Origin: Mycobacteriales bacterium
GTDB taxonomy: Bacteria > Actinomycetota > Actinomycetes > Mycobacteriales > QHCD01
Direction of reading: 5' to 3'
DNA length: 35,413 nt
NCBI GenBank assembly: GCA_036497565.1
Contig: DASXJE010000243.1
Coordinates: 1-35,413 of the forward strand
Position 1 is the stretch's first letter. Each line of letters begins with the position of its first letter. The notes beneath the pieces are model-generated. The model had not been told where the DNA came from, made no database searches, and worked only from the letters and a program-made list of their open reading frames with translations. Below, piece after piece: positions 2,518-21,777 of the stretch. The translations under genes were made by a program, and so were the position numbers.

Positions 2518-2589
2518 GTGAATCTCCCGAGGGTCGAGTCGTGTGCCCCACGACCCTAGCCAGCCCGCCCGGTCGCCGATGGATCGGTG

Positions 2590-2629: not shown

Positions 2630-2657
2630 ACCCGGAGCCTCACCTTGGGAGATCGCC

Positions 2658-5114: not shown

Positions 5115-5135
5115 CCGCCGGCGCCTCGCGGCCTT

Positions 5136-5196: not shown

Positions 5197-5208
5197 GCGG
5201 GGGAGCCG

Positions 5209-5277: not shown

Positions 5278-5318
5278 GGGGCTCGGCCGGCGGGGGGCCG
5301 CCGCGGCCGGATGCCGAG

Positions 5319-6488
5319 CTAGCGGGCGAGGACGGAGACGAGCGCGGCGACCGGGCGGTGCCGCATCACCCGCGGAAAGGTGGTGTCCCCGCGGGTCAAC
5401 CGCATGAACGTCCGCCACGTCGGTCCGCCGGCGGCGATCGCGGCATGGAACGCGCGCGGCCGCCGGGTATACGCCGCCATGATCGCGCGCCCGGCCCGCA
5501 TCTCGGCTCCCAGGCTCCCGTCGATCTCGGCGGCGTACGTCGTACCCAGCTCCGCCACCTGCGCGCCGTCGGCCCGGGCCATCCGGGCGGCCGCGCCACC
5601 CGCGATCCGGCCGGAGCGGAGCGCATAGGAGATGCCCTCGCGGGTCCACGGCTCGAGCAGTCCGGCCGCATCGCCGGCGACCAGCACTCGGCCCCGTACG
5701 AGCGGCGAGCGGTCGTCGCGGCACCGCGTCAGGTGCCCCGACGATCGGATCACCCTGTGGTCGGCCAGTCCCACCTGGCCGACGAATCGGCGCAGGTAGT
5801 CGCGGACCGCGTCGCCGTCGCCGCGCGCCGAGATCACGCCGACCGTAAGCGCGTCGCCCTTGGGGAAGACCCACCCGTAGGAGCCCGGCAGCGGCCCCCA
5901 GTCGAGCTGGACGCGTCCCGCCCAGGCCGCGGCGGTCGCGGAGTCGGCTGCGACCTCGACCTCGAGCCCCAGGTCGACCTGCCCGCAGGTCACCCCGACG
6001 TGGCGACCCGTGCGTCCCGAGGTCCCGTCGGCACCCACCACCGCCCGCGCGGTGACCACACCGGCCGAGGTGGTCAGCGTGACGTGACCGTCCGCGGCAT
6101 CGACGCCGCGCACCACGGTGCCCGGGAGCAGCGTTGCACCGCACTCCACCGCGCTGCTGGTGAGTGCAGCGTCGAACTCGTCTCGGTTGATCATCTCGAC
6201 CATCTGGGCCGGATCCCGATGGGTACGACGCAAGCCTCCGCCGAGGCTGAAGGTCACTGCGGTGATCCGCTCGCGCGTAGGCGGCCGGACGCCCGGCGGC
6301 AGGGCCGCGAGGCTGGCCCCGACGAGGCCGCCGCCGCAGGTCTTGTAGCGCGGCAGTTGTGCTCGTTCGATCAGCAGCGTCCGAGCGCCGGCCTCGGCCG
6401 CCGACCGCGCCGCGCAGGCGCCCGCCGGGCCCGCGCCGACGACCACGACGTCCCACTCGCCGCCGTTCGCTCCCGGACCCATGGCCAC
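5319..6488 (-). CDS. Geranylgeranyl-reductase-family FAD-dependent oxidoreductase
   Basis: This 389-residue flavoprotein belongs to the geranylgeranyl reductase / p-hydroxybenzoate-hydroxylase-like group. Family members saturate isoprenoid side chains of menaquinone, lipids or chlorophyll, or act on related lipids. Seen are an N-terminal dinucleotide site VVVVGAGPAGACAA, the LPRYKTCGGGL motif typical of geranylgeranyl reductases, VVGADGTSG in the middle, and the FAD-binding GRVLVAGDAAGLLEPWTREGISYA near residue 270. The annotated start is GTG 6488; ATG 6482 is equally possible because neither has a clear ribosome binding site. No transmembrane segment is seen. It is divergent from the SMP-30 operon. 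No prenyl-synthase gene lies nearby, so the substrate is open. Confidence 0.88.
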   Translation of the reverse strand: MAMGPGANGGEWDVVVVGAGPAGACAARSAAEAGARTLLIERAQLPRYKTCGGGLVGASLAALPPGVRPPTRERITAVTFSLGGGLRRTHRDPAQMVEMINRDEFDAALTSSAVECGATLLPGTVVRGVDAADGHVTLTTSAGVVTARAVVGADGTSGRTGRHVGVTCGQVDLGLEVEVAADSATAAAWAGRVQLDWGPLPGSYGWVFPKGDALTVGVISARGDGDAVRDYLRRFVGQVGLADHRVIRSSGHLTRCRDDRSPLVRGRVLVAGDAAGLLEPWTREGISYALRSGRIAGGAAARMARADGAQVAELGTTYAAEIDGSLGAEMRAGRAIMAAYTRRPRAFHAAIAAGGPTWRTFMRLTRGDTTFPRVMRHRPVAALVSVLAR

Positions 6489-6501
6489 AGGCTAGGGGGC
6501 G

Positions 6502-6552
6502 GGTGCGATCCGCACCGACCGGTGGCTTCGCGCGACGCCGGCACTGTGTGCC
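6502..6552. promoter_or_regulatory. Two short palindromes in a divergent spacer
   Basis: GGTGCG-ATC-CGCACC (6502-6516, perfect) and GGCAC-TGT-GTGCC (6540-6552, perfect) lie in the 105-bp spacer between the flavoprotein at 5319-6488 and the SMP-30 gene at 6594. They are 23 nt apart and look like dimer binding sites. No regulator gene sits next to them. The operator role is inferred. Confidence 0.35.
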
Positions 6553-6593
6553 AGGCTTGCCGGGCTCGTCCATCACCAGAGGCTGGAGGCAGA

Positions 6594-7529
6594 ATGACCA
6601 CCACCGGTGAGCCGACCTTCGAGGTCCTCGACGACCGGTTCAGCACCTGCATCAAGACCAGTGCGCGGATCGAGAAGCTGTACGGCGGCTGTCGCTGGGC
6701 CGAGGGTCCCGCCTACTTCCCCGCCGGCCGGTATCTCGTGTGGAGCGACATCCCCAACGACCGGATCATGCGATGGGACGAGACGAACGGCGAGGTCGGC
6801 GTCTTCCGCTCGCCGGCCGGCTACACCAACGGGCATACCGTCGACGCCGTCGGCCGGCTGATCAGCTGTGAGCACGGAAACCGGCGGGTGACCCGGACCG
6901 AGTTCGACGGCTCGGTGACCGTGATCGCGGACCGCTACGACGGCAAGCGGTTCAACAGCCCCAACGACGTCGTGGTCCACTCCGACGGCTCGATCTGGTT
7001 CACCGACCCGGCGTACGGCATCGACAGCGACTACGAGGGTTGGCAGGCGGAGAGCGAGATCGGAGCCTGCCACGTCTACCGCGTCGACGCCGACACCGGC
7101 GCATGCCGCATCGTCGCGGACGACTTCGTGCGCCCCAACGGGCTGGCGTTCTCCCTCGACGAGAGCCAGCTCTACATCTCCGACACCGGAGCCACCCACC
7201 AGGCCGACGGCCCGCACCACATGCGCCTCTTCGACGTGCATTCCGACGGCACACTGTCCGGCGGCAAGGTCTTCGCGACCTGCACCAACGGTCTTTTCGA
7301 CGGATTCCGGCTGGACGACGCCGGTCGGATCTGGACCAGCGCCGAGGACGGGGTGCACTGCTACGACCCTGACGGGTCGCTCATCGGCAAGATCCGGATC
7401 CCCGAAACCGTCGCCAACGTCGTCTTCGGGGGGCCGAAGCGCAACCGGCTCTTCATCTGCGCGACGACCTCGGTCTACTCCGTCCTCCTGCCGGTACGCG
7501 GCGCGGCGCTGCCGCTCGACCGCCGGTAG
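6594..7529 (+). CDS. SMP-30/gluconolactonase-family beta-propeller hydrolase
   Basis: This 311-residue protein is the first gene of a compact four-gene run. The family hydrolyses sugar lactones or related esters with a divalent metal in the central channel of a six-bladed propeller. The expected metal ligands are visible: Glu37 in RWAEGPAYF, Asn124 in NSPNDVVV, Asn182 in RPNGLAFS and Asp197 in YISDTGA. DGSIWFTDPAYGI (131-143) is a family signature. No signal peptide is seen, so it is cytoplasmic. ATG 6594 has TGGAGG 5 nt upstream. The next gene begins 3 nt after its stop, arguing for co-transcription. A role in opening a lactone formed after oxidation of a glycoside product is an inference. 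Confidence 0.9.
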   Translation: MTTTGEPTFEVLDDRFSTCIKTSARIEKLYGGCRWAEGPAYFPAGRYLVWSDIPNDRIMRWDETNGEVGVFRSPAGYTNGHTVDAVGRLISCEHGNRRVTRTEFDGSVTVIADRYDGKRFNSPNDVVVHSDGSIWFTDPAYGIDSDYEGWQAESEIGACHVYRVDADTGACRIVADDFVRPNGLAFSLDESQLYISDTGATHQADGPHHMRLFDVHSDGTLSGGKVFATCTNGLFDGFRLDDAGRIWTSAEDGVHCYDPDGSLIGKIRIPETVANVVFGGPKRNRLFICATTSVYSVLLPVRGAALPLDRR

Positions 7530-7532
7530 GCC

Positions 7533-8138
7533 ATGCCGCCGCGCGAGCCGCGACCGCCGGACCGCGGACCCGGCCGGGTGATCTTCCTCAACGGCGCCTC
7601 CAGCTCGGGGAAGTCCACACTGGCCGCCGCCTTGCAGCGCGCGTTGCCCGAGCCGTTCCTGCACGTCTCGTCCGATCACCTGGTCGACAGCGGCATGCTG
7701 CCGGAACGGCGTAACGACGGCGGCCCGTTCGACTGGTGGGAGCGGGTTCGGCCGCGATTCTTCGACGGCTTCCACCGGTGTCTGCCGGCGCTGGCTCATG
7801 CGCGCAACGACCTGGTCGTCGAGCACATCATCGAGTTCGCCGCCTGGCGTGCACAGCTCGCCCGTCTGCTCGCCGGGCTGGACGTCTTTCTCGTCGGCGT
7901 GCATTGCGACCTCGACGAGCTGGACCGCCGCGAGAAGGACCGGGGCGACCGGCGTATCGGCGAGGGCCGGACGCACGTGGAGACCGACCTGATCCACACC
8001 TTCGGTCCGTACGACTTCGACGTCGACACCACCGCGGGTGTTTCCTCGGCTGTGGTGACGTCGGTCCTCGACGCGTGGAACGTGCGCGGAGAAGAACGCG
8101 CCCTGCAACACACCGCCTCGAAGGGAGACCCGACATGA
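7533..8138 (+). CDS. Chloramphenicol-phosphotransferase-like P-loop kinase
   Basis: This 201-residue P-loop protein resembles the CPT family, whose founding member 3-O-phosphorylates chloramphenicol. Seen are the Walker A loop GASSSGKST (21-29), FLHVSSDH with Asp48 at the position of the family's catalytic Asp, NDLVVEHIIEF (90-100) and the HCDLDELDRREKDRGDR region, a lid-like Arg-rich segment. It sits between a gluconolactonase and a GH116 enzyme, 3 nt after the former and overlapping the latter by ATGA. That argues for a small-molecule or sugar-derived hydroxyl as substrate rather than an antibiotic. The start is ATG 7533; the ribosome binding site is weak, consistent with translational coupling. 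Confidence 0.85.
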   Translation: MPPREPRPPDRGPGRVIFLNGASSSGKSTLAAALQRALPEPFLHVSSDHLVDSGMLPERRNDGGPFDWWERVRPRFFDGFHRCLPALAHARNDLVVEHIIEFAAWRAQLARLLAGLDVFLVGVHCDLDELDRREKDRGDRRIGEGRTHVETDLIHTFGPYDFDVDTTAGVSSAVVTSVLDAWNVRGEERALQHTASKGDPT

Positions 8139-10741
8139 CCACCGCACAGGCTGACCGGTCGATGGCGTACGACGGGGACCGGCGGGCGGCCCTTGCGATG
8201 CCGCTCGGCGGCATCGGCACCGGCCAGTTGGCGATCTGCGGTGACGGCAGCCTGCGGCAGTGGCAGCTGCACAACGTCGGAAACCACCTCGGCTATCTGC
8301 CGGCCAGCTTCTTCGCGCTCCGACTGTCCCGGCCGGAGCCACCGCTGGACGAGATCCGGCTGCTGCAATCCGCACCGGTCGATCCGGTGCCCGGTCCCGC
8401 GCCTCTCGTGTCCGACCACGTCGTGCCGCCGGAGCTCACGAAGCTGACGCAGACCCTGCGGCCGGTCGACCGCACAACCTTCCGCGCTCTGTATCCCTTC
8501 GCAGAGGTCGATTTCCACGACGACGACCTGCCGGTGAGCATGACCATGGAGGCGTTCACGCCCCTGGTCCCGCTCGACGTCGCGGCCAGCGCATTGCCCG
8601 CGGCACTGTTCACCTTCACGGTGCGCAACGACGATTCCCATGAGCTGCACGGCTCGCTCGGCACGGCGTTGCAGAACGCCGTCGGCTGGGACGGGATCAC
8701 GCCGATCGTCGACAACCGGTGCGCGTCGTACGGCGGGAACGTCAACCGCGTCCGCCGCCGCGGCGGGTGGACGTCGCTGCTCATGGACAACCCGTCGTTG
8801 GCCGACGACGACCCGGGGTTCGGCCAGATGGTGCTGTCCGCCGACACCGCAGACGCGGATGCGTATCCGCAGTGGTCGACGGCCGCCGACTTCGCCACCT
8901 TCCTGCGTGGCGGTTCGACCCGCAGCGGCCCGCGCGCGGCCGTCGGGCCGAGCGCACCCGGCGCCACCTGGAACGGCGGCCTGCGGATCCCGTTCCGCCT
9001 CGGCCCGGGGGAGACGGTCGCCGTACGCGTGGTCCTCTCCTGGTACTTCCCCAACCGCTACGTCAACTTCGAGCAGTTCGGGCCGGCGCACGCCGATTCG
9101 CGGAGCAGGTTCTGGCTCGGCAATGACTACGCGACGCACTTCGCCGACGCCGAGGACGTCGCCGAGTCGGTGCGGACGGACTGGCACCGGTTGCGTGACC
9201 GGTCCCGCGAGTGGACCGGCGTACTCGCCGCAAGCTCGTTGCCGGACGACGTCGTCGAGCGGATGGCTGCGCAGCCGTCACTGTTGCGCAGTCCGACCTG
9301 CTTCCAGGCCGCCGACGGGCGGTTCTTCGGTTTCGAGGGCACGCTCGGCGAGTCGACGGTGATGTGGAACGGCGCGTACGGCGGCTCGTGCCCACTGAAC
9401 TGCACACACGTCTGGAACTACGCCCATGCGGTGTCCCGGCTGTTTCCCGAGCTGGAGCGGAGCATGCGGGAGACCGAGCTGGAGATCATGCAGGCGCCAG
9501 CGGGCTACATCCCGCACCGCGCCGTCGCACCCGTCTACCTCCGGCAGATGTGGGACGTACCGATCGGCGGTCCCACCGAGCCGGCGCTGGACGGGATGCT
9601 CGGCACCGTCCTCAAGACCTACCGAGAGGTGCGGGCCGGCGCGGGTCTGCCGTGGCTGGAACGGATGTGGCCGCGGATCAAACGGCTGCTCGACCACATC
9701 GGCGGCAAGTGGGACCCGGACCGGACCGGCGTGCTGCGCGGCATCCAGCCGAGCACGCACGACATCGACCTGCGCGGCGTCAACACCTTCATGGGCAGCT
9801 ACTGGCTCGCCGCACTCCGCGCGGCCGAAGAGATGGCGCGGCTGGTCGGCGACGAGCCGGCCGCCGACGACTATCGGTCACTCTTCCTCGCCGGCAGCAC
9901 GGCGTACGACGAGCTGACCTGGAACGGCGAGTATTACCGGCAACGGCTCGAGCCCGCCGAGGACACGGCGTTCCAGTGGGGAGCGGGCTGCCTGTCCGAC
10001 CAGCTGGTCGGACAGTGGTGGGCGCATCAGCTCGAGCTCGGCTACATCCTGCCCGCCGACCACGTGCGCACCGCGCTCCGCTCGGTTGTGCGGCACAACC
10101 TGCGCGACGGGTTCCGCGGGTTCGACCACCCGTTCCGGGTCTACGCCGACGGCGACGACCGCGGACTGCTGATGTGCTCCTGGCCGGTCGGTGGCCGACC
10201 GGAGATCCCGACGCGCTACGCCGACGAGGTGTGGTCCGGAGTCGAGTACCAGGTAGCCGCGCACTGCCTGATCGAAGGCCTGCACGACGAGGGCATGCGG
10301 ATCCTGCACGGCCTGTGGACCCGCCACGACGGCACCCGCCGCAACCCCTACAACGAGATCGAGTGCGGTGACCACTACGTCCGGGCGATGGCGGGCTGGT
10401 CGGTGCTGGAGGCGCTGACCGGGCTGCGCTGGAACGCCGTACCGGCGAGCCTGCGGCTGCATCCGCTCGGCGTCGGTGAGCAGTGGCAGGTGCCGGTCCT
10501 CACCGACACCGGATGGGGCACGGCCGTCGCGGATGCCCGCAGCCTGACCCTGCACTGTGTGCACGGCACGATCGGACTCGGTGAGCTGCGGATCGTCGGC
10601 GACTGGACGTCGTCGTCGGTCACGGTTGGCACGGAGAAGGTCGACCACCGCGGCGGCGTTGACGGCGACGAGTCACGGCTGTTCTTCGACCCCGCACTGG
10701 TGCTCGAACCTGGCACCCGACTGGTGGTCGCCCGCGACTGA
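8135..10741 (+). CDS. GH116 glycosidase (GBA2-like glucosylceramidase family)
   Basis: This 868-residue enzyme has an N-terminal beta-sandwich (from AMPLGGIGTGQLAICGDGSLRQW near 21-43) and a C-terminal alpha/alpha barrel. Family members (human GBA2, bacterial TxGH116) cleave beta-glucosides or beta-xylosides, including glucosylceramide. Candidate catalytic residues by motif comparison are Glu401 in FFGFEGT (cf. LEG in GBA2) and Asp543 in QPSTHDIDL (cf. QTYD in GBA2). CTHVWNYAHAVSRLFPELERS (423-443) is a further family landmark. No signal peptide or membrane segment is seen. ATG 8135 overlaps the previous stop (ATGA) and has GGGAG upstream. The natural substrate, perhaps a glycolipid or plant glycoside, is not known. 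Confidence 0.9.
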   Translation: MTTAQADRSMAYDGDRRAALAMPLGGIGTGQLAICGDGSLRQWQLHNVGNHLGYLPASFFALRLSRPEPPLDEIRLLQSAPVDPVPGPAPLVSDHVVPPELTKLTQTLRPVDRTTFRALYPFAEVDFHDDDLPVSMTMEAFTPLVPLDVAASALPAALFTFTVRNDDSHELHGSLGTALQNAVGWDGITPIVDNRCASYGGNVNRVRRRGGWTSLLMDNPSLADDDPGFGQMVLSADTADADAYPQWSTAADFATFLRGGSTRSGPRAAVGPSAPGATWNGGLRIPFRLGPGETVAVRVVLSWYFPNRYVNFEQFGPAHADSRSRFWLGNDYATHFADAEDVAESVRTDWHRLRDRSREWTGVLAASSLPDDVVERMAAQPSLLRSPTCFQAADGRFFGFEGTLGESTVMWNGAYGGSCPLNCTHVWNYAHAVSRLFPELERSMRETELEIMQAPAGYIPHRAVAPVYLRQMWDVPIGGPTEPALDGMLGTVLKTYREVRAGAGLPWLERMWPRIKRLLDHIGGKWDPDRTGVLRGIQPSTHDIDLRGVNTFMGSYWLAALRAAEEMARLVGDEPAADDYRSLFLAGSTAYDELTWNGEYYRQRLEPAEDTAFQWGAGCLSDQLVGQWWAHQLELGYILPADHVRTALRSVVRHNLRDGFRGFDHPFRVYADGDDRGLLMCSWPVGGRPEIPTRYADEVWSGVEYQVAAHCLIEGLHDEGMRILHGLWTRHDGTRRNPYNEIECGDHYVRAMAGWSVLEALTGLRWNAVPASLRLHPLGVGEQWQVPVLTDTGWGTAVADARSLTLHCVHGTIGLGELRIVGDWTSSSVTVGTEKVDHRGGVDGDESRLFFDPALVLEPGTRLVVARD

Positions 10742-10769
10742 CCCGGGCCGGCGCCGCTAAGGTCGCACC

Positions 10770-12293
10770 GTGAACGATCACTACAACGTCGTCCTCGTCG
10801 TCTTCGACACGTTGCGCAAGGACGCGGTCGGCAGTTACGGGCTCACGCCGCCGTGGGGCGACGACTTCCCGGCAGTCGCCACGCCCAACCTCGACGCCTT
10901 CGCCGCCGAATCGGTGCGCTACACCCGGGCCTATCCCGAGTCGCTGCCGACACTGCCGGCCAGGCGCGCCCTCTACACCGGCCAACGTACGTATCCGTTC
11001 CACAACGGTGACTTCAAGCTCAAAGGCGATTTCATCCCCGCGCCCGGGTGGGGACCGATCCCGGAGGAACAGCACACGCTCGCCGAGATCCTCGGCGCGG
11101 CCGGCTTCCGCACCGGCCTGGTCTCCGACCTCTACCACCAGTTCAAGCCGAGCAAGAACTTCTGGCGCGGCTTCGACGAGTGGGATTTCATCCGCGGCCA
11201 GGAGACCGACCCGGCCCGATCCGGGCCGGTGCCCACCGAGGCGGAGATCGCGCACTGGATCCCGGAGGAGCTGCGCGAACTCCGCCGCCGCGACCCGGCG
11301 GGGTCCGGGCGGCGGGCGCGTGACGGCGCGGACTGGTTCTCCAGCCGCATCATCGCCAACATGCGGGACCGGGTGGCCGAAGACCAGTGGTTCAACGCCG
11401 AGGTGATGACCACCGCCGCGCGTTGGCTCGAGCAGAACCTCGACGTGCGCCGGACCGGGGAGCGGATGTTCCTCACCGTGGAGTCGTTCGACCCGCACGA
11501 GCCGTGGTTCGTGCCCGAGCATTACCGGCGTCACTACGACACCTCCGACGGCCGGGAACAGGTGATCTCGCCGTACGCCGAGGTTCCCGACCTACCGGCC
11601 GACCTGTTGCGGCGTACCAGGGCCAACTACGCCGGTCTCGTGACGATGGCCGACCGCTGGTTCGGCCACCTGCTCGCCGCGCTGTCGGCGCAGGGCTGGC
11701 TGGAGGACACCGTCGTCATCGTCGCGTCGGATCACGGGCACAGCCTCGCCGAGCGAAAGCATTACATCGGCAAGCGCGGGTATCCCGCGGAGCCGGAGGT
11801 GGTCGAGGTGCCGCTGTTGATCCGGCACCCCGCCGGGTTGGGCGCCGGCAGCGCGGTCGACGACTGGGTGCAGCACCACGACCTCGCCGCGACCATCCTC
11901 GACGCCGCGGAGGTGCCGGCGCCGGAGCCGATCGCCGGTCGTTCGTGCTGGCAGTCGACTTTCGCCGGTGGCGCGCCGGCCAGGGACCATGTCGTCGTCG
12001 GCTGGGGTTCGGCGTTCACCGTGATCACCGACGACTGGTGGTTCAACAGCAAGGTCAACGGGAAGGGCGCGTTTCTGCATCCAATCGGTGACCGCAGCGG
12101 ACCGGATCCGTGGTCGGTCAACCTGGCGGAGCGGGAGCCGGCCGTGGTCGGCGAGCTGTTCGAGAAGGGCGTCGCCGCGGCGGCCGGAGGGTTTCCGCAG
12201 TTCCTCCTCGACGCGGCCGAGAACGCCGAGGATGCGCCGGGTTGCTCGCCACTCGCGGCGGCGCCGCTGACCCGCGCGAAGCCCGTCGGCTGA
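10770..12293 (+). CDS. Sulfatase-like hydrolase of the alkaline phosphatase superfamily, Thr in place of formylglycine Cys/Ser
   Basis: This 507-residue member of the sulfatase / alkaline phosphatase superfamily is the last gene of the run, 28 nt after the GH116 gene. N-terminal metal ligands are in LVVFDTLRKDAVGSYG (Asp13). The second metal site is VIVASDHGHSLAERKHYIGKRG (Asp321, His322). The sulfatase signature C/S-x-P-x-R appears as TLPAR (61-65), with Thr61 at the position normally converted to formylglycine. Thr cannot be converted, so the enzyme may instead use Thr like phosphodiesterases of the superfamily, or be an unusual hydrolase. No signal peptide is seen. The start is the GTG at 10770. 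The substrate is probably a sulfate, phosphate or phosphonate ester on the glycoside handled by the operon (inference). Confidence 0.87.
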   Translation: MNDHYNVVLVVFDTLRKDAVGSYGLTPPWGDDFPAVATPNLDAFAAESVRYTRAYPESLPTLPARRALYTGQRTYPFHNGDFKLKGDFIPAPGWGPIPEEQHTLAEILGAAGFRTGLVSDLYHQFKPSKNFWRGFDEWDFIRGQETDPARSGPVPTEAEIAHWIPEELRELRRRDPAGSGRRARDGADWFSSRIIANMRDRVAEDQWFNAEVMTTAARWLEQNLDVRRTGERMFLTVESFDPHEPWFVPEHYRRHYDTSDGREQVISPYAEVPDLPADLLRRTRANYAGLVTMADRWFGHLLAALSAQGWLEDTVVIVASDHGHSLAERKHYIGKRGYPAEPEVVEVPLLIRHPAGLGAGSAVDDWVQHHDLAATILDAAEVPAPEPIAGRSCWQSTFAGGAPARDHVVVGWGSAFTVITDDWWFNSKVNGKGAFLHPIGDRSGPDPWSVNLAEREPAVVGELFEKGVAAAAGGFPQFLLDAAENAEDAPGCSPLAAAPLTRAKPVG

Positions 12294-12305
12294 TCGGCGC
12301 GGCCG

Positions 12306-12506
12306 TTACTTCTTGCGAAGGCGCGCGGCGAGTGTCGCCGGGGTGCTGAATTCGCACGGCCCCCGGTGCCGGGCGCCGTGCAGGCAGATCCGGCCGGTCG
12401 GCAGGTGCAGGCTGCCGCAGAACCCTGCCCTGGCGGCATCTTCGCTGAAGCCAGCGTTGTGGATCTCCAGCCGGTCAGCCAGCGACGTATCCATCGTGGA
12501 AATCAC
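12306..12506 (-). CDS. Small Cys/His-containing hypothetical protein
   Basis: This is a 66-residue protein of unknown function. The middle holds six possible metal ligands, Cys30, His34, Cys41, His43, His47 and Cys51, within AGFCGSLHLPTGRICLHG and the following ARHRGPCEF. The arrangement suggests a small zinc-binding or structural fold, but no named family is claimed. GTG 12506 is preferred because GGGAGAGG lies 5-6 nt upstream; ATG 12494 is an alternative. It is convergent with the sulfatase-like gene, with 12 nt between stops. The low-complexity Ala/Arg/Lys tail (ATLAARLRKK) is basic. Confidence 0.65.
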   Translation of the reverse strand: MISTMDTSLADRLEIHNAGFSEDAARAGFCGSLHLPTGRICLHGARHRGPCEFSTPATLAARLRKK

Positions 12507-12977
12507 CGCACCTCTCCCGTCCCGGTGATCGAGTGAAGCCTGGCGGCAGCCCAACACCCGGATCGGCGCCGCCCTGCCGAGATGCTCAAATGAGATGCGT
12601 CGTTGCACTAGGAGTCATGGTGAGCCCCGATTGCCCGATTGGGCAAGGGGTTCGCCCGGATCCATGCCCATCCCGCTACCGGTGGCCGCAGCGGTGCGTC
12701 CGGGGCCACCGGTACGCGATCGCCCGGGTGGGGAGATCGCGGCCGTCGGGATTTTTGCGGTAGGGGTCACTTCCTGTGAAGGCTGGGATACGCTGCGGCT
12801 TGACTGGCTTAGGTCGAGTAAGGCGATGACCCGCACCGCGGGCCGCAGGGGGGCTTCGGCCGGTTCGGTAAGGACGCACAGCGGCCTCGGCGTGCCGTGC
12901 GTTCTCGACTGCACTGCTTCCGGGCGAGGGAGGCCTGGTTTTCGGTCCGTAGAGCCGGTCTCCGCGTCGGGAATCCC
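12507..12977. other. Long intergenic region with hairpins
   Basis: No convincing gene is seen on either strand: the open frames are compositionally patchy and lack family motifs. It contains a perfect TTGCCC-GATT-GGGCAA palindrome (12631-12646) and a perfect 11-bp inverted repeat (12677-12714). A TTGACT hexamer (12800-12805) has no good -10 partner at normal spacing. It probably holds the promoters of the small minus-strand gene and of the transposase-like/AfsR pair. Confidence 0.5.
12677..12714. repeat. Perfect 11-bp inverted repeat
   Basis: TACCGGTGGCC (12677-12687) pairs perfectly with GGCCACCGGTA (12704-12714) across a 16-nt loop. There is no T-tract. It could be an operator or a structured transcript end. 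Confidence 0.5.
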
Positions 12978-13238
12978 ATGGCAGCAACCAGATCGCCGCT
13001 TCTGCCCAGATCGTGGGCGCCGCGTCGCCAAGCCTCGTCGGTGCTCGTCGGAGCGGTCCTGGCCTGTCTCATCGCCAACGTCACCGGCCACGGCTCGCCG
13101 CATTCCACCCGGACAGGTCTGCTTCCCGATCGGTATCAGGCGGGCGAATGTCTGATCGATCAGGCGGAAGCACCTGCGGTGGCATACGCGGTTAACGGAG
13201 GCCGGCTCTGCGCAGTTCAGGAACCACACGGGGGATGA
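12978..13238 (+). CDS. Doubtful small ORF with one hydrophobic segment
   Basis: This is an 86-residue open frame beginning at ATG 12978 with GGGAA 5 nt upstream and ending 4 nt before the next gene. The N-terminus is Arg-rich, followed by SSVLVGAVLACLIANVTG (about 25-42), a possible membrane anchor or signal. There are two Cys in the remainder. Third-position composition is mixed and weaker than in neighbours, and no family is recognised. The only support is the ribosome binding site and the tight junction with the following gene. It may be a remnant or chance frame. Confidence 0.25.
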   Translation: MAATRSPLLPRSWAPRRQASSVLVGAVLACLIANVTGHGSPHSTRTGLLPDRYQAGECLIDQAEAPAVAYAVNGGRLCAVQEPHGG

Positions 13239-13242
13239 CGCG

Positions 13243-14145
13243 ATGACCGACACTGTGCACCAGGCGCCGGACGACGCCCGGGTGATTGCGCCCGTAACCA
13301 CCGCAGCCCGCGACGCCGGTTCGTCGCCGCACCTGATCGGCCAGCTGCCCGACATCGTCATCGAGGCGCTGACCGCCTGGCAGAACCGGGCCCTCGACGC
13401 CGTCTGGCCGGTGATCTATGTCGAGGAGCTGCCGGTGCGGATCGGCGCCGGTCAGGCCGTGGCCACCACGATGTACGTCGTCAGCGGGGTGGACTGTGCC
13501 GGGGCCGAACACGTGCTCGGTCTGTGGCCGGCGCCCGGTGCGGACGAGTCCGTGCCGTTCTGGACGCGGGTACTCGGCCAAGTGACCGCGCGCGGGGTGG
13601 GCGACGTGTGCCTGGTCAGCTGCGACGGTGTCGCCGGGCTCGCCGATGCCGTCGGGCTGACCTGGCCGCGCGCCATCTGCCAGACCCGGGTCCTGGGTCT
13701 GATCCGGACCTCGCGACAGTACGGGCCGCGACGGAGTTGGGCGGCGGTCAGCGCCGCACTGCAGCCGGTCTACACCGCGCCCGACGAGGCATCGGCCGCG
13801 GCGGCGCTGGACGCATTCGCCGGCCGGTTCGGCCAGCGCTACCCGGCCCTGGTCCGGCTCTGGCGCGTGCACTGGGCAGCGCTCGCGCCGTTCCTGGCGC
13901 TCCCGATGGGTGTCCGCCACCTCGTCTACACGACGCCGCTGCTGGATTACGTCGATGTCCGGCTGCGCGCGGTCGCCGATGACCAGGGTCCGTTCCCGTC
14001 GGTCCAGGCCGCGGTCGAGGCCCTTTACCTTGCCGTCCGCGACGTCGAGGAGGCGGACCGCCCCCGCACAGTCGTGGACATCGAGCAGCGCGGCGCGCTT
14101 CGGGCCGTGGGGACCTACTTCGACGGGCGGCTTCCCACCAAGTAG
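13243..14145 (+). CDS. IS256/mutator-transposase-derived protein with altered catalytic residues
   Basis: This 300-residue protein aligns by eye along the catalytic domain of IS256-type (mutator) DDE transposases. Landmarks are AWQNRALDAVWPVIYVEELPVRI (45-67), VLGLW (91-95), FWTRVLGQVTARGV (106-119), SCDGVAGL (126-133), QTRVLGLIRTS (147-157), PVYTAPDEASAAAALDAF (175-192) and LVYTTPLLDY (227-236). Of the DDE triad the first Asp is Glu61, the second is kept (Asp128) and the Glu aligns with Asp235. The family's Cys-x-x-His is Arg149/Gly152. The N-terminal DNA-binding portion of a typical ~400-residue enzyme is absent. No terminal repeats were found. The next gene starts 24 nt downstream, suggesting one operon and a domesticated role. 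The start ATG has GGGGGA upstream. Confidence 0.8.
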   Translation: MTDTVHQAPDDARVIAPVTTAARDAGSSPHLIGQLPDIVIEALTAWQNRALDAVWPVIYVEELPVRIGAGQAVATTMYVVSGVDCAGAEHVLGLWPAPGADESVPFWTRVLGQVTARGVGDVCLVSCDGVAGLADAVGLTWPRAICQTRVLGLIRTSRQYGPRRSWAAVSAALQPVYTAPDEASAAAALDAFAGRFGQRYPALVRLWRVHWAALAPFLALPMGVRHLVYTTPLLDYVDVRLRAVADDQGPFPSVQAAVEALYLAVRDVEEADRPRTVVDIEQRGALRAVGTYFDGRLPTK

Positions 14146-14169
14146 GGCCCGCCCTGAGAGAGTGGTCCT

Positions 14170-17100
14170 GTGCAGGTCTCCATGCTGGGTCCGCTCGTCG
14201 TCACCGAGGACGGCCGGCCGCTCGAGGTCGGCGGCGTCCGGCTGCGCGCGCTGATGATCCGGCTCGCCCTGGACGCGGGCAGCATCGTGGCGACCCGGTC
14301 CCTGGTCGACGCGCTGTGGGGATCGGCGCCACCGGCCGACGAGGCCAATGCCCTGCAATCGTTGGTATCCCGGCTGCGCCGGATCCTCCCGGACCGGTCG
14401 GCGATCGCCTCCACCGGCGGTGGATACCGGCTCGTGCTACCGGTCGACGACGTCGACGCCCGCCACTTCGAGCGGCTGGCCCGCCATGGCCGCCGGCAAC
14501 TCGACGCCGGCGAACCGCGCGCCGCGAGCGAGACCCTGTTCTCGGCGCTGCAGCTATGGCGCGGTCCGGCGCTGACCGACGCCGGCGACGCACCGTTCGT
14601 CGCCGCGGCCGCCGCCCGGCTCGAGGAGCTGCGGCTGACCGCCCGCGAGGACCGGATCGACGCCGACATCGCGCTCGGACGTCACGCGGCGGTCGTCGGG
14701 GAACTCGAGAGTCTCGCCGCCGAATATCCGCTGCGGGAGCGGCTGCGCGCCGCGTTGGTCACCGCGCTGTACGCCGTCGGGCGCCAGGCAGATGCCCTGA
14801 CGACGTACGAGCAGACCCGGCGGATGCTCGCCGACGAGCTCGGTGTCGACCCTGGGCCGCAACTGCAGGCCGCCTACCTCGCCGTGTTGCGGGGCGAGCC
14901 CGCCGCGAAGCACCCCGAGCAGCCGACTCCCGTGGCACCACGTCACAACCTGCGGTCGCCACTGACGAGTTTCGTCGGACGGGACGAGGAGGTTGAGCGG
15001 ATCGGCAAGCTGCTGGGTGACAGCCGGCTGATCACCCTGGTCGGGCCGGGCGGCGGCGGCAAGACCCGGCTGGCCGCCGAAACCGGTGCACGGGCGGGTG
15101 AAGCGATGCACCACGGGGTGTGGATGGTCGAGCTTGCCTCGGTCACCGACCCGGGCGACGTGCCCCAGGCCGTTCTCGGCGCGCTCGGGCCCCGCGACTC
15201 GACCCTGCTCGACCTCCGCCGGCAGGGCACGTCCCGCGATGTGATGAGTGGCCTGCTCGACTCCCTCGTCGATGCGCAGGCGCTGCTGATCCTCGACAAC
15301 TGCGAACACGTGATCGACGCGGCGGCCACCCTCGCCGACCAGTTGCTCGGCCGTTGCCCCGACCTGCGCATCCTGGCCACCAGCCGGGAGCCGCTGGCCA
15401 TCGTGGGAGAGACGCTGCTTCCGGTCACGCCCCTCGCTCGGCCGGCCGTCGGCGGCTCCGTCGTCGACGCCATGGCGAGCCCCGCAGTCCGGTTGTTCTC
15501 CGACCGCGCGGCGGCCGTCGCCCCGGGATTCGCCGTCGAACCCGACAACGTCGAGGCGGTGATCGAGATCTGTCGCCGGCTCGACGGCCTCCCCCTGGCG
15601 ATCGAGCTCGCCGCGGCCCGGCTGCGGTCGATGTCGGTGCAGCAGATCGCCGCCCGTCTCGGTGACCGCTTCCGGCTGCTGACCGGCGGGAGCCGGACGG
15701 CTGTTCCCCGGCATCGCACGCTGCGGGCCGTCGTCGAGTGGAGCTGGGACCTGCTGAGCGACCCGGAGCGCAGGCTCGCGAGCCGGCTCGCGGTGTTTCC
15801 GGCCGGTACGACGGTCGAGAGCGCCGAGGCGGTGAGCGCCGACGTCGTACCGGCGGGGCAGGTGCCGGACCTGCTCGCCGCTCTCGTCGACAGATCCTTG
15901 CTGCTCCTCGTCGACGGTGACCCGCCGCGCTATCGCATGCTCGAGACGATCCGGGAGTTCGGCGCCGAGCGGCTCGCCGACGAGGGCTCGATCGCCGATG
16001 TGCAGGCCCGGCACGCAGGCTACTTCCGGGACCTCGCGGAGACCGCCGACCCGTTCCTCCGCGGCGCGGATCAGCTGCCGTGGCTCGCCCGGCTCAGCAT
16101 GGAGCGGGAAAACCTCCTGGCCGCACTGCGCTACGCGATCGACGCGCAGGACGCGGCGACGGCGATCCGCCTCGGCGCTGCACTCAGCTGGTTCTGGACG
16201 CTCCGTGGCAGTCATGGGGAGGCTGCCAGCTGGCTCGAGATGGCGCTCGCGGTGCCGGGTGAGTCGCCGACCGAAGAGCGGGCGGTGGCCGCGACGGTGC
16301 AGGCGATCAGCGCGATGGCCGTCGGGCAGCAGGACCGGAGCCGGGAAACGGCGATCGAGATGCTGGAGAGTTTTCCCGATTTCGATGCCCGCAACCGGCA
16401 TCCGGTGCTGAGCCTCGTCGAGCCGGGCATGGCGATGCTCGCCGAAGACATCCCGCGTGCGCTCCGCACGATCGAACGCGGGCTGGCCAACCCGGACCGG
16501 TGGACCAACGCGACGCTGCGGATGCTCCGGGGCTTCATCGCCGAAAACCAGGGCGATGTCGCTCAGATGGTGGTCGACCTGACCGATGCGGCCAGGGCGT
16601 TCGACGAGATCGGCGAGCGGTGGGGCCTCAGCAACTCGGTGGCCGCCCTGGCCAACCAATACATGAACGAGGGCGACCTGGACAGGTCGTTGGCGGAGTA
16701 CCAGCGCGCGCTCCGGTTGATGACCGAGCTCAACGCCCAGAACGACAGGAGCTTCATGCAGGTCCGCATCGCCATGGTGCGGGCCCGCCGAGGCGAGATG
16801 GAAGAGGCGAAAGCCGAGCTACGCCAGATTGCGGAGAGCACCCAGGAGTCCGGCAGCGGGCTGTTCGAGGCATTGGCCCAGCACGGCCTCGGCGAGATCG
16901 CACGGTTGGTCGGGGACCCGACGTTGAGCCGCACATTGACCGAAGGGGCATTGAGCCGTGTCGACCGGTCCGGTGTCGGTCCGCCCCAGGCCAAGGCGAT
17001 CATGCTGGCCGGACTGGTCAGTCTCGACCTAGCCGAGGGTGATCTGGCCTCGGCCGGGGTTCGGTTGCGTGAGGCGACCGCGTTGGCAACCGCGACCCAC

Positions 17101-17391
17101 GACATGCCCGTTGTCGCGGTGATCTTGATCGTCACCGCGGAGTGGACGCTGCGCGCCGACGGTGACGCCGTCCGGGCGGCCGAACAGTTGGGAGCGGCCA
17201 CCGCCCTGCGCGGCACCGAAGATGTCGGCAATCCGGACGCACAACGGCTGTCCGGGTGGCTACGCGATCGCCTCGGCGACGACGCCTACGACGAGGCATA
17301 CCGGCGCGGCAGCCGGCTGGAACGCGACGACGCGCTCGCCCTGCTCCCGCGAGGTGGGGGAGGGGACGAGCGCGTCGGCTGCGCGGGTTAG
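14170..17391 (+). CDS. AfsR/SARP-type regulator with BTAD, NB-ARC and TPR domains
   Basis: This 1073-residue transcriptional regulator is of the type that controls secondary metabolism in actinobacteria. Residues 1-90 form an OmpR-like winged helix (MLGPLVVTEDG ... RSAIASTGGGYRLVL). Residues 95-243 form the bacterial transcriptional activation (BTAD) domain, ending DELGVDPGPQLQAAYLAVLRGE. The NB-ARC ATPase follows, with Walker A GPGGGGKT (292-299) and Walker B ALLILDNCEH (371-380), then RILATSREPL and a GLPLAIELAAARLR motif. The C-terminal half is TPR-like helical repeat. The GTG start has GAGAGAG upstream. The stop lies 1 bp from the convergent exporter gene. ATP-dependent activation of nearby promoters, possibly the exporter, is an inference. 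Confidence 0.93.
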   Translation: MQVSMLGPLVVTEDGRPLEVGGVRLRALMIRLALDAGSIVATRSLVDALWGSAPPADEANALQSLVSRLRRILPDRSAIASTGGGYRLVLPVDDVDARHFERLARHGRRQLDAGEPRAASETLFSALQLWRGPALTDAGDAPFVAAAAARLEELRLTAREDRIDADIALGRHAAVVGELESLAAEYPLRERLRAALVTALYAVGRQADALTTYEQTRRMLADELGVDPGPQLQAAYLAVLRGEPAAKHPEQPTPVAPRHNLRSPLTSFVGRDEEVERIGKLLGDSRLITLVGPGGGGKTRLAAETGARAGEAMHHGVWMVELASVTDPGDVPQAVLGALGPRDSTLLDLRRQGTSRDVMSGLLDSLVDAQALLILDNCEHVIDAAATLADQLLGRCPDLRILATSREPLAIVGETLLPVTPLARPAVGGSVVDAMASPAVRLFSDRAAAVAPGFAVEPDNVEAVIEICRRLDGLPLAIELAAARLRSMSVQQIAARLGDRFRLLTGGSRTAVPRHRTLRAVVEWSWDLLSDPERRLASRLAVFPAGTTVESAEAVSADVVPAGQVPDLLAALVDRSLLLLVDGDPPRYRMLETIREFGAERLADEGSIADVQARHAGYFRDLAETADPFLRGADQLPWLARLSMERENLLAALRYAIDAQDAATAIRLGAALSWFWTLRGSHGEAASWLEMALAVPGESPTEERAVAATVQAISAMAVGQQDRSRETAIEMLESFPDFDARNRHPVLSLVEPGMAMLAEDIPRALRTIERGLANPDRWTNATLRMLRGFIAENQGDVAQMVVDLTDAARAFDEIGERWGLSNSVAALANQYMNEGDLDRSLAEYQRALRLMTELNAQNDRSFMQVRIAMVRARRGEMEEAKAELRQIAESTQESGSGLFEALAQHGLGEIARLVGDPTLSRTLTEGALSRVDRSGVGPPQAKAIMLAGLVSLDLAEGDLASAGVRLREATALATATHDMPVVAVILIVTAEWTLRADGDAVRAAEQLGAATALRGTEDVGNPDAQRLSGWLRDRLGDDAYDEAYRRGSRLERDDALALLPRGGGGDERVGCAG

Positions 17392-17392
17392 G

Positions 17393-18223
17393 TCAGGCCT
17401 TCCGGCGGTAGGCCCGCACCGCGAGCGGCGCGAAAACGGCCACGATGCCAACGCCCCAGGCCAGTGCCTCGAGCACCGGGACCGCCACGGCGCCCCCGAG
17501 CATGAGGTCACGGACGGCGTCGACGAGGTGGGTGATCGGGTTGATCTTGACCCACTCCTGCAGCCAGCCCGGCATGCTGGATGTCTGCACGAACATGTTG
17601 CTGCCGAAGGTGAGCGGGAACATCAGCAGGAAGCCCACGCCCTGCACCGCGCTCGGCTGGCGGAAGACCATGCCGAGGTAGACCGAGATCCAGCACATGC
17701 ACAGCGCGAAGAGGATGACCAGCAGGCACGCGGCCAGCGCCGAGAGCGGATCCGTCGCCACCCGGAAGCCGAGCAGCGACCCGAATCCCATCAGGACGGC
17801 GACCGAGATCGCATAGCGGACGACCTCGCCGAGCACCGCCCCGACCAGTGGTGCTGATCGCGGGATCGGCAGGCTGCGGAACCGGTCGAAGACGCCCTTG
17901 TCGACGTCGGTGTTCAGGTTGACGCCGATACTCACCGAGGAGAAGACCACGGTCTGCACCATGATCGCCGGCAGGACGAACTCCAGGTAGTCGTGGGTCG
18001 ACCCGGCGACCGCGCCACCGAAGATGTAGACGAAGAGCAGCACGAAGATGATCGGCTGCAGGGTCACATCCATCAGCTGTTCGGGCGTGCGCTTGATCTT
18101 GATGATGCTGCGCTGCGCGAGAGCGAGGCTGTGGCGCACCAGTGCCATCGGGCGCGCCGGGGTCGGGTTGGGGGTCGGACGGTTCGGCGCCTCGGTGACC
18201 GGCGGCGCGGTCAGGACACTCAT
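17393..18223 (-). CDS. ABC-2-type exporter permease (DrrB-like)
   Basis: This 276-residue integral membrane protein belongs to the DrrB/NodJ branch of ABC-2 transporters, which export drugs, lipids or polysaccharide. The cytoplasmic N-terminus ends in SIIKIKRTPEQLMDVTLQP, the usual lead into the first helix. About six hydrophobic segments follow. The motif DVDKGVFDRFRSLPIPRSAPLVG (about 105-127) and LPAIMVQTVVFSSVSIGVNLNTD are characteristic. Its ATG overlaps the stop of the ATPase gene by 4 nt, so the two form one transport unit. The cargo is unknown; daunorubicin-type naming is by family only. Confidence 0.92.
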   Translation of the reverse strand: MSVLTAPPVTEAPNRPTPNPTPARPMALVRHSLALAQRSIIKIKRTPEQLMDVTLQPIIFVLLFVYIFGGAVAGSTHDYLEFVLPAIMVQTVVFSSVSIGVNLNTDVDKGVFDRFRSLPIPRSAPLVGAVLGEVVRYAISVAVLMGFGSLLGFRVATDPLSALAACLLVILFALCMCWISVYLGMVFRQPSAVQGVGFLLMFPLTFGSNMFVQTSSMPGWLQEWVKINPITHLVDAVRDLMLGGAVAVPVLEALAWGVGIVAVFAPLAVRAYRRKA

Positions 18224-19182
18224 GCTGCGTTCTCCTTGTCGTCTTCTTCGGTGGCCCGCCGCCCGGTGAGAGCGAAGAACACCTCGTCGAGGCTGGGCAG
18301 GCCCAGTGCAAGTTCGGTGACCGCGATTCCGTCGCGATGCAGGCGCTGTACGACGGTGGTCAGTGCGGCGTCGCCGTCGACGGCGACGCTCAGCACGCCC
18401 CGGCTCGGTGACTCCACTTCGTGGTCGGTGACCGCGAGCAGGATCGCGGCCACCTCGTCGAGCCGGCTCGGGTCGACCGGCCGGACCTGCAGGGTCTGGC
18501 CGCCGACGATCTGCTTGAGCTCGTGCGGGGTGCCGTGGGCGATGACGGTGCCGTGGTCGATCACCGAGATCTCGTCGGCAAGGGCATCGGCCTCGTCGAG
18601 GTACTGGGTGGTGAGCAGCACGGTGACCCCGTCGTCGGCGAGGTCGCGGATGATCCGCCAGACGTCGTCCCGCTTACCGGGATCGAGGCCGGTCGTCGGC
18701 TCGTCGAGGTAGATCACCGACGGCCGGCCCACGAGACTGGCCGCGAGGTCCAACCGTCGGCGCATGCCCCCCGAGTAGGTCTTGACCGGTCGGTCGGCCG
18801 CCTCGGTGAGCTCGAAGTCGGCGAGCAGCCCCCGCGCCCGGACCCGGGAGTCGGCCCGGGTCAGGTCGAGTAGCCGGCCGATCAGGACCAGATTTTCCCG
18901 CCCGGTGAGGTCCTCGTCGACCGAGGCGTACTGCCCGGTGAGGCCGATCTCTCGCCGTACCTTGTTCGCGTCACGGACGACGTCGAGACCGCCGACCGTG
19001 GCGTGGCCGGCATCCGGTTGAAGCAGCGTGGCGAGGATGCGGACCGCCGTGGTCTTGCCGGCGCCGTTCGGCCCGAGGACCCCCATCACCGCGCCCTGTG
19101 GGACGGCGAGATCGACCCCGGCCAGCGCCACGGTCTGGCCGAAGCGCTTTACGAGCCCCTCCGCCCTGATCGCGTACGTCAT
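18220..19182 (-). CDS. ABC exporter ATP-binding protein (DrrA-like)
   Basis: This 320-residue ATPase pairs with the permease downstream. It has Walker A GPNGAGKT (37-44), the signature YSGGMRRRLDLA (136-147), Walker B VIYLDEPTTGLDP (156-168) and a DrrA-type C-terminal extension after LTTQYLDEADALADEI. ATG 19182 is strongly supported by CGAGGAGGAAGC immediately upstream. A longer frame to 19248 runs through the inverted repeat and is rejected. It probably energises export of a small hydrophobic product, possibly under the AfsR-type regulator that converges on this pair. Confidence 0.94.
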   Translation of the reverse strand: MTYAIRAEGLVKRFGQTVALAGVDLAVPQGAVMGVLGPNGAGKTTAVRILATLLQPDAGHATVGGLDVVRDANKVRREIGLTGQYASVDEDLTGRENLVLIGRLLDLTRADSRVRARGLLADFELTEAADRPVKTYSGGMRRRLDLAASLVGRPSVIYLDEPTTGLDPGKRDDVWRIIRDLADDGVTVLLTTQYLDEADALADEISVIDHGTVIAHGTPHELKQIVGGQTLQVRPVDPSRLDEVAAILLAVTDHEVESPSRGVLSVAVDGDAALTTVVQRLHRDGIAVTELALGLPSLDEVFFALTGRRATEEDDKENAA

Positions 19183-19230
19183 GTGCTTCCTCCTCGGTCG
19201 GTGCGGTGTTGACTGCACCGTGCCAAGGGC

Positions 19231-19263
19231 GGCTGTCAGCGCCCGCACACCTCGCTGACAGCC
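19231..19263. repeat. Perfect 11-bp inverted repeat upstream of the exporter genes
   Basis: GGCTGTCAGCG (19231-19241) and CGCTGACAGCC (19253-19263) are perfectly complementary with an 11-nt spacer. It lies 48 nt upstream of the DrrA-like ATG and 45 nt downstream of the secreted GH3 stop, both on the minus strand. It could be a factor-dependent terminator or hairpin for the GH3 transcript, or an operator for the exporter. The absence of a T-run argues against a simple intrinsic terminator. Confidence 0.55.
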
Positions 19264-19308
19264 ACTGGCAGCACGCTGGCGGCCGCTCTCCCGGGGCGAC
19301 CCCGGGGA

Positions 19309-21777
19309 TCAGAAGATCGTGAAGGGTGCCGACACGGCGACGTCGTAGGGCGTCGTGTCGTTCTTGTTCAGCGCGACCACATAGTCACCGGGCTCGACCG
19401 TCGGCGGTCCGGAGGCGTTGATGTCGCCCTGGGTCTCGGCCAGCGCCGAGGCCGGGAAGGAGACGTGGGCCACCGTGGACTTGCCGGCTCCGAGCGTGAC
19501 CCTCGTGAAGCCGACCAGCCGCTGGGGCGGCACGACCACGCTGCTGACCGGCTGGCTCACGTAGACCGGCACGATGTCGGTCCCGCTCCGGGTCCCCGTG
19601 TTGGTGACGGTGAAGGTCGCCGCCGCATTGCTGTTGGCCGAAACGTGGGGTGTCACCGAGAGGTCGTGGGTGTCGAAGGTGGTGTAGGAGAGGCCGTATC
19701 CGAACGGGTACAGGGGGTTGTAGAGGTGACCGGGACCTGACCCGGTGCCCGGCAGCTGGTCGAAGAACTTCGGCTGGTCGCCCAGTGGGGAGGCCGCCGC
19801 GCCGTCGAAGTCGCCGCCCACCGTCTTCGCGTCCGACGGCCAGCTGACGGGCAGCTTTCCGCTCGGGTTGATCTTGCCGAAGATCGCGTCCGCGACCGCC
19901 CGGCCGGCTTCGGTGCTGCCCTGGTAGGCCATGAGGACGCCGTCCGCCTGCTCCGCCGACCCCAGGCCGACGGGACGGCCCGCGAGGACGACGACGATGA
20001 CCGGCTTGCCCGTTCCCTCGAGCGCGGTGATCAGCGCCTGCTGGTCCGGCGGCAGCGCCGGCGCCGGGTTGTCGCCGAGGCCCTCGGCGTAGGCCTTCTC
20101 GCCGACCGCCACGACGTAGGCGCTCGCACTCCCGGCCTGAGCCAGGGCGCTGGCCTGGTCGGGCGCGGACACCGCGTGGGGATCGGCCGCCTGGATGCCC
20201 TTGAGGACCGTCGTACCCGGGGGGATCTGGTTGGCCGGCCCGGCGCAGCAGACGTGCCCGGAGCCGAAGACGCCCTGCCAGCTCACGCTCCACCCGCCGA
20301 GCTGGTTGGTCATGGAGTCCGCGCTCGGCCCGGTGACGACCACCTTCCCGGTCGGCGACAGGGGCAGCGCGTTGTTCTCGTTACGCAGCAGCGTGACCGA
20401 CTCCCGGGCCGCGGCGAGCGTGCCCTGCCGGCCGGAGTTGACCGCAGCGTCGGCCGCGTGGGCGTCGAGGCACGGGGTGGAGGGGTCGTTGACGCACGGC
20501 TGGTCGAAGAGTCCGAGGTGGAACTTCAAGGTGAGGATCCGGCGTACGGCCTGGTCGATCCGCGCACGGGAGATCTTCCCGGTCCGGACGTCCAGCAGGG
20601 CCGCCGTCTGCCACTGGTCCGGCGCGAAGACCTCCATGCTCATGTCGACGCCGGCGTTGACCGCCTTGGCGATGGCGCCGGCAAGATCAGGGGCCACGTG
20701 GTAGGCGCTCTGCAGCGCGGGCACGTCCTGGTAGTCGCTGATGACGACGCCCTGGAAACCCATCTGCTTGCGCAGGATGTCCGTGAGCAGATAGTGCGAC
20801 GCGGTAGCCGGTACGCCGTTGATCGACCCGGAGTCGACCATGACGCTGTCAGCGTTGGCGTCGATCCCGCCGGCGTAGGACGGGAGGATCATGCTCTGCA
20901 GGTAGCTGAGCGGGAGCAGCGCCTCGTTGCGATCGTGCCCGTTGACCGCCTGCGAGTAGCCGGCGAAGTGCTTGACGGTCGCCGCGACGCCCAGCTTCCC
21001 GGCACCGGCCGGTGCCTGGAGGCCCTGCACGTTGGCCCCGCCCATGGCCGCCGTCAGCGCCGGCTCCTCGCCCCAGGTCTCGTAGGTCCGGCCCCAGCGG
21101 TTGTCCCGCGACAGGTCCTGCACCGGGGCGAACGCCCAGTTCCACCCGGTCGCCTGCAGGGCCTTGGCGGTCGCGGCGCCGCCGGCCCGGGCCGCCGCCG
21201 GGTCCCAGGTGGCTCCCATCCCGATCGACTGCGGGTAGAGCGGCGCCTGCCACGGGTGGCCGAAGCCGTGCACCGCGTCGACGCCGAAGATCAGGGGGAT
21301 GTGCAGCCGCGAGTTCTTGATCGCGTACTGCTGGATGATGTTGTATTCGTTGGCCCAGTCGAAGCCCGTATTGCCGGGGCCACCCTTGCCGGTGGTGTCG
21401 ATCGGGTTATTTGTGCCTCCGGCGAGAATCGAGCCGGCGTGCTGGTCGATCAATATCTTCTGCATGCATGCGGGATTGGGCAGGTTGAAGCCGTTGTCAC
21501 CGCAGGTCGCGCTGTTGGAGTCGGTCAGGGTAGTGACCAGCTGCTGGTCCATCTGCCCGACCTTTTCCGGAAGTGTCATAGCGTTGACCAAGGCGTCGAC
21601 CCGGGTGCCGACCGATAGGTGGGGGTTGAGCCACGGCTGTTTCGCGTGAGCGGCGCTTCCGTCGCCCTGGCTGGCGAGCGACGGCACCGCGAATGCCAAC
21701 GCACCGACGACCGCCACCGCCGCGAGTGACGCGGTTGTTCTTCCTCGGGCCCGACCACCGAAAAACGCACCGGCCAT
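19309..21777 (-). CDS. Secreted glycoside hydrolase family 3 beta-glucosidase
   Basis: This is an 822-residue exported GH3 enzyme. The N-terminus RARGRTTASLAAVAVVGALAFA plus VPSLASQG is a signal peptide with probable cleavage near Ala35. The GH3 N-terminal domain carries GVDAVHGFGH (165-174), WNWAFAPVQDLSRDNRWGRTYE (212-233), KHFAGYS (269-275) and nucleophile Asp348 in GFQGVVISDYQDV. The second domain includes GKVVVTGPSADSMTNQLGGWS, and the C-terminus is fibronectin-III-like. It resembles bacterial exo-beta-glucosidases that finish off cello- or beta-glucan oligomers outside the cell. The ATG has GAGGAGGT 8 nt upstream. A promoter and CebR-like boxes precede it. It differs clearly from the cytoplasmic GH3 at 2658-5114, which has a PA14-like insert and no signal peptide. 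Confidence 0.94.
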   Translation of the reverse strand: MAGAFFGGRARGRTTASLAAVAVVGALAFAVPSLASQGDGSAAHAKQPWLNPHLSVGTRVDALVNAMTLPEKVGQMDQQLVTTLTDSNSATCGDNGFNLPNPACMQKILIDQHAGSILAGGTNNPIDTTGKGGPGNTGFDWANEYNIIQQYAIKNSRLHIPLIFGVDAVHGFGHPWQAPLYPQSIGMGATWDPAAARAGGAATAKALQATGWNWAFAPVQDLSRDNRWGRTYETWGEEPALTAAMGGANVQGLQAPAGAGKLGVAATVKHFAGYSQAVNGHDRNEALLPLSYLQSMILPSYAGGIDANADSVMVDSGSINGVPATASHYLLTDILRKQMGFQGVVISDYQDVPALQSAYHVAPDLAGAIAKAVNAGVDMSMEVFAPDQWQTAALLDVRTGKISRARIDQAVRRILTLKFHLGLFDQPCVNDPSTPCLDAHAADAAVNSGRQGTLAAARESVTLLRNENNALPLSPTGKVVVTGPSADSMTNQLGGWSVSWQGVFGSGHVCCAGPANQIPPGTTVLKGIQAADPHAVSAPDQASALAQAGSASAYVVAVGEKAYAEGLGDNPAPALPPDQQALITALEGTGKPVIVVVLAGRPVGLGSAEQADGVLMAYQGSTEAGRAVADAIFGKINPSGKLPVSWPSDAKTVGGDFDGAAASPLGDQPKFFDQLPGTGSGPGHLYNPLYPFGYGLSYTTFDTHDLSVTPHVSANSNAAATFTVTNTGTRSGTDIVPVYVSQPVSSVVVPPQRLVGFTRVTLGAGKSTVAHVSFPASALAETQGDINASGPPTVEPGDYVVALNKNDTTPYDVAVSAPFTIF

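Follow-up and report, generated by a model that had tools for sequence, protein, structure and literature searches.

An immobile IS256 derivative in front of a SARP regulator gene: decaying remnant or folded protein probably still kept?

Is the transposase-like open reading frame (ORF) that ends just before a SARP regulator gene in a Mycobacteriales bacterium the remnant of an insertion sequence that is still open by chance, or is it a protein that the host has kept after transposition was lost? An earlier note, made from the letters alone, had favoured the second answer and proposed exaptation of the ORF as a DNA-binding or regulatory partner of the regulator. The window, which is the whole stretch of DNA analysed (35,413 nucleotides), contains both genes as described there, 24 nt apart. 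The features referred to below are the following (L107 is the closest element found, a Trebonia sp. sequence):

12489..13242, no strand assigned: region upstream of the ORF, non-coding-like, the presumed location of a promoter
13243..14145, plus strand: ORF derived from the IS256 family (Transposase_mut), ATG start, 300 aa, retaining the catalytic domain, the insertion domain and a portion of the HTH
13243..13323, plus strand: diverged N-terminal 27 codons, of which the first 13 nt, ATGACCGACACTG, are those of the likely native start of L107 (1001-1013)
13423..13425, plus strand: codon 61, Glu in place of the first catalytic Asp of IS256 (from the alignment)
13624..13626, plus strand: codon 128, Asp, the second catalytic residue, retained (from the alignment)
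13687..13698, plus strand: codons 149-152, Arg-Val-Leu-Gly at the position of the C-x-x-H motif of IS256 (from the alignment)
13945..13947, plus strand: codon 235, Asp in place of the catalytic Glu of IS256 (from the alignment)
14146..14169, plus strand: spacer of 24 nt with a weak purine-rich GAGAGAG before the GTG; any right terminal repeat of the element should lie from this point onwards
14170..17391, plus strand: SARP regulator (BTAD, NB-ARC/AAA and TPR), GTG start, 1073 aa, intact
17393-18223, minus strand: DrrB-like permease, convergent with the SARP gene
18220-19248, minus strand: DrrA-like ATPase, convergent with the SARP gene

Descent of the ORF and what it has lost

In a profile search the ORF matches PF00872 (Transposase_mut) with E 1.6e-45, and its score of 157.9 bits with the IS256 model NF033543 (cut-off 150) places it in the IS256 family by descent, among transposases of the IS256/Mutator type. 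Because this NCBIfam cut-off is passed, automatic annotation would name it IS256 family transposase. The only solved relative in the structure-based comparison is TnpA of ISCth4 (6xg8, 6xgw, 6xgx), which has the same fold of catalytic and insertion domain. Modelling, which the earlier note had asked for, predicts that the fold is intact (pLDDT 81.5), although AlphaFold, which draws on homologues, would return this fold for a dead gene as well. The model superposes on residues 117-120 to 407 of ISCth4 (Z 27.9, 275 residues aligned); no other solved fold stands out, Hermes and the retroviral integrases coming next with Z about 10.

Of the features of a functional transposase, namely the D-D-E triad, the C/D-x-x-H motif and the N-terminal dimerisation and DNA-binding domains, the ORF has none. 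As had been read from the translation, its triad is E61-D128-D235 and the C-x-x-H pair is R149/G152, positions that align with D, D and E and with C and H, respectively, in 6xg8 and in the full-length relatives. The counterparts in ISCth4 TnpA are D175, D241 and E348 for the triad and C262 and H265 for the motif, and the N-terminus of that enzyme consists of DD (1-56), NDB (56-108) and HTH (108-165) (PMC7780238). The earlier statement that the N-terminal DNA-binding part is missing holds for DD and NDB but not for the HTH, much of whose fold may remain, since the superposition already begins at ISCth4 residue 117-120. At query position 33 the relatives invariably have the HTH contact serine (ISCth4 S147), an equivalence that assumes a 3-residue numbering offset derived from the alignment; the window protein has Gly there. 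The loss of DD, NDB and this serine makes it less likely that the protein acts by binding DNA. Very probably the window protein is catalytically dead.

No terminal inverted repeats flank the ORF, as had been claimed: an internal search, a comparison with the repeats of L107 and a motif search were all empty. In the comparison with L107 one result reached a nominal P of 0.045; it was rejected as lying in the wrong orientation and as one of eight tests. Upstream of the ATG, six-frame reading gave nothing convincing as a transposase N-terminus, and neither a terminal repeat nor an IS N-terminal remnant was recognised between 12489 and 13242. In the host's own genome (assembly completeness 98%) there is no further IS256-like locus, so that the ORF is single copy. 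With terminal repeats and further copies absent and with the N-terminal domains and catalytic residues lost, mobility has been lost as well.

About 1,650 genomes of the order, the class and the phylum, together with relatives of the best match, were searched (the host's own family being sampled by 2 genomes), and the best matches of the subgroup are IS256 transposases of 34-43% identity. Of those inspected residue by residue, nearly all retain the triad and the C-x-x-H, and the full-length ones retain the N-terminus. When 84,980 species were scanned with a profile, the best 80 loci gave the same picture, 77 having D-D-E and C/H and three a single substitution. Homologues with the same substitutions, by which the earlier note had wished to see its reading confirmed, were found neither in the roughly 1,650 genomes nor among these 80 loci, and the same holds for orthologues that are conserved at one fixed position and subject to purifying selection. 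A single-protein scan of genome contigs revealed no close relatives. Plasmid and viral collections contain ordinary IS256 elements (best identities 43.5% and 37%, respectively). Two candidates were discarded: L024, which seemed to share the R/G pair, is a short fragment aligned by chance, and L188 from a Trebonia MAG is an ordinary fragment that retains C-x-x-H. The order contains many truncated IS256 copies.

Closest among the matches listed is L107 (Trebonia sp. MAG, JASHXJ010000492.1) with 50% identity over window residues 24-298. Both have the subfamily motifs IDC-GA, AAAALDAFA and RAHW and the same start. L107 differs in being 442 aa long with full N-terminal domains, D-D-E and C-x-x-H, and in having terminal repeats (922-950, 2301-2330) that carry a TGTAA motif. 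L107:922-2330 is an intact IS256 element with terminal repeats of ~29 bp and adjoins a gene resembling that of a phage terminase. The window ORF is descended from an L107-like element. The 13 identical nt at both starts suggest that an in-frame internal deletion may have removed about 150 of its codons while the ancestral start was retained. Two findings that would have spoken for an ordinary mobile element did not turn up: the mobile homologues with terminal repeats lack this set of substitutions, and the ORF is long diverged from any mobile relative, as a recent truncation of an active IS256 element would not be.

The regulator gene, its exporter and the wider window

The gene downstream is, as described, a 1073-residue SARP/NB-ARC regulator that starts with GTG 24 nt past the ORF stop. 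The good ribosome-binding site that it was credited with is in fact a weak one. For comparison the 29 best homologues from the order were used (L078-L106, identities of 42-52%). In 27 of them, just as in the window, the next gene downstream encodes a DrrB-like permease and is convergent, whereas an IS256-like ORF lies upstream in none (0/29), the upstream genes there being variable. This argues that SARP and exporter form an old unit, which the IS256-like ORF joined only in this lineage. The convergent arrangement, kept across the order, also suggests that the SARP controls the DrrAB-type exporter. The same genome contains at least six more SARP or NB-ARC/TPR paralogues (L071-L077), 37-46% identical to the window SARP, and beside these no IS256-like ORF is found.

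The window contains further genes that should be mentioned in their own right. The region 2541-21777 is carbohydrate-rich, with two GH3 enzymes, a GH116 enzyme, a sulfatase and an SMP-30 domain protein. Between the SMP-30/gluconolactonase-domain gene and the GH116 gene lies a chloramphenicol phosphotransferase-like ORF (7533-8138; PF07931, E 6.7e-45), which overlaps the GH116 ORF at the start given for it; the latter probably starts later. On the minus strand, 12306-12608 is a small ORF (<=100 aa) whose C-terminal half contains three cysteines (CGS, ICLHG, GPCEF) and which matches no defence model. Searches with RNA-family and defence-system models yielded nothing.

Decay or upkeep

The ORF has the character of a coding sequence. 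Its GC at the three codon positions is 0.77/0.52/0.89, it uses codons as native genes do, and its sense strand clearly outscores the antisense strand; the 950 nt upstream are unlike a native gene in both GC by codon position and codon use. There are zero frameshifts and zero stops. The absence of stops, from which the earlier note had argued against decay, is correct but weaker evidence than claimed, since in GC-rich DNA 5-7% of matched neutral-decay runs are also stop-free. More weight is carried by the missing frameshifts and by the pattern of amino-acid changes.

Of the 35 columns that never vary among 35 relatives, the window protein has changed 13, and 33% of its conserved columns are broken versus 0-9% in each of these relatives. 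In the tree its terminal branch is 1.33 long versus about 0.16 for the sister L107, which places about 90% of the divergence on the side of the window. Compared with L107, 32% of the conserved and 65% of the variable columns are changed (Fisher p 3e-4). Neutral simulations were started from living relatives, one set of 300 runs from the codons of L107; in this set about 50% of the conserved and of the variable columns change alike, third-position differences amount to about half of those observed, and the mean BLOSUM of the observed changes lies above all 300 runs. In a second simulation, matched by the number of conserved columns that are broken and run also in a version in which neutral decay sets in only after an active phase, the hydrophobic core is retained to about 0.81 versus 0.915 observed (P 0.007-0.01) and zero stops occur with P 0.05-0.07, both P-values being modest. 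This simulation accumulates about 145 nt changes, for which several indels would be expected versus none observed as frameshifts, an argument that depends on the assumed indel ratio of 5-10%. Visibly decayed copies of the subgroup have up to 25% broken conserved columns, fewer than the window protein, and are already truncated, frameshifted or stopped. The pattern of change disfavours free decay, and with moderate confidence we infer that the ORF has been kept as a folded protein since it lost transposase function. The earlier reading of "not decay" is thereby upheld in part: constraint on the fold fits better than neutral decay, but free decay is disfavoured and no more than that.

A truncated and inactivated IS256 copy that by chance still lacks a stop or frameshift, its open frame reflecting high GC, is thus the less likely but most serious rival. 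It is what a single copy in one genome, at an unconserved location and without terminal repeats, would lead one to expect in an order where such truncated copies are common, and the broken invariant columns, the lost N-terminus and the stop-free fraction of neutral runs at 70% GC agree with it; against it stand the sparing of conserved columns with conservative changes, a hydrophobic core retained beyond that of matched neutral runs (P about 0.01), and a native codon periodicity free of frameshifts over about 145 or more nt changes. Considerably less probable is that the frame rather than the protein is selected, translation through the ORF feeding the SARP start. The short spacing, the weak ribosome-binding site of the SARP gene and its lack of an upstream intergenic region of its own would fit such a leader, which would account for the missing stops and frameshifts without any protein function. 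The sparing of conserved columns and of hydrophobic residues after inactivation would then be left unexplained, and translational coupling is usually tighter than 24 nt. That the ORF still encodes an active, unusual transposase with an E-D-D triad is hardly credible: all three positions remain acidic and the predicted fold is intact, but the dimerisation and N-terminal DNA-binding domains and the C-x-x-H are lost, terminal repeats are absent, and the genome contains neither a second copy nor a related repeat.

The reading that we prefer, with a probability of roughly 0.55, is that the ORF is an old, immobilised, catalytically dead, lineage-specific IS256 derivative that was captured as first cistron in front of the SARP gene and is probably still selected as a folded protein. 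An IS256 copy would have inserted upstream of the SARP gene and then lost its ends by deletion. Since the L107 element extends 40 nt past the stop and the window SARP starts at 24 nt, most of the right end must have been removed or overwritten. With the right end mostly gone, the SARP gene, to judge from the spacing, would have come to share a transcript with the old transposase gene as a two-gene unit and probably depends on transcription through it or from within it. IS256-type insertions can raise the expression of downstream genes (PMC7780238). Most likely its product would act as an RNase H-fold protein without catalysis that is co-produced with the SARP, and/or the ORF would serve as a leader cistron whose translation sets the expression of the SARP gene.

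Exaptation or domestication of the ORF is a plausible hypothesis and, since no relative shares the arrangement, no more than that. The proposed regulatory partnership with the SARP has fared less well than the immobility, single-copy state and long divergence of the ORF, the comparison of SARP homologues (0/29) giving it no support. If what is kept is the fold and not the catalysis, the protein would be one of the rare DDE transposase domains in host use among bacteria, and it would provide a recipe for finding others: a broken triad, a kept core, a single copy, no ends and a fused operon. If it is merely decaying, it is a useful warning that, at high GC content, an open frame says little about function.

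Comparison with known systems

From its only solved relative, ISCth4 TnpA, the window protein differs by lacking DD and NDB and by substitutions at the equivalents of D175, E348, C262, H265 and S147. The AfsR-type SARP regulators, with BTAD, NB-ARC and TPR, include the product of the gene downstream of the ORF; the conserved neighbour of that gene is the convergent DrrAB-type exporter, not an IS256-like ORF. TnpA-REP (RAYT), which has been termed the first prokaryotic domesticated transposase (PMC8266576), is likewise a single-copy bacterial transposase kept by its host, but it belongs to another enzyme class, is associated with REP repeats and is widely conserved. A further parallel is offered by the Mutator-derived transcription factors FHY3/FAR1 of plants, in which a MULE-type transposase, related to IS256, is in host use (PMC13306707). 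That the window holds a bacterial counterpart of FHY3/FAR1, i.e., a dead IS256 catalytic domain taken over as co-expressed regulatory partner of a SARP controlling a DrrAB-type exporter, is a rather doubtful extension of the preferred reading. FHY3 and FAR1 represent conserved families of plant transcription factors, whereas the window has one bacterial gene with a putative function and no intact DNA-binding domain.
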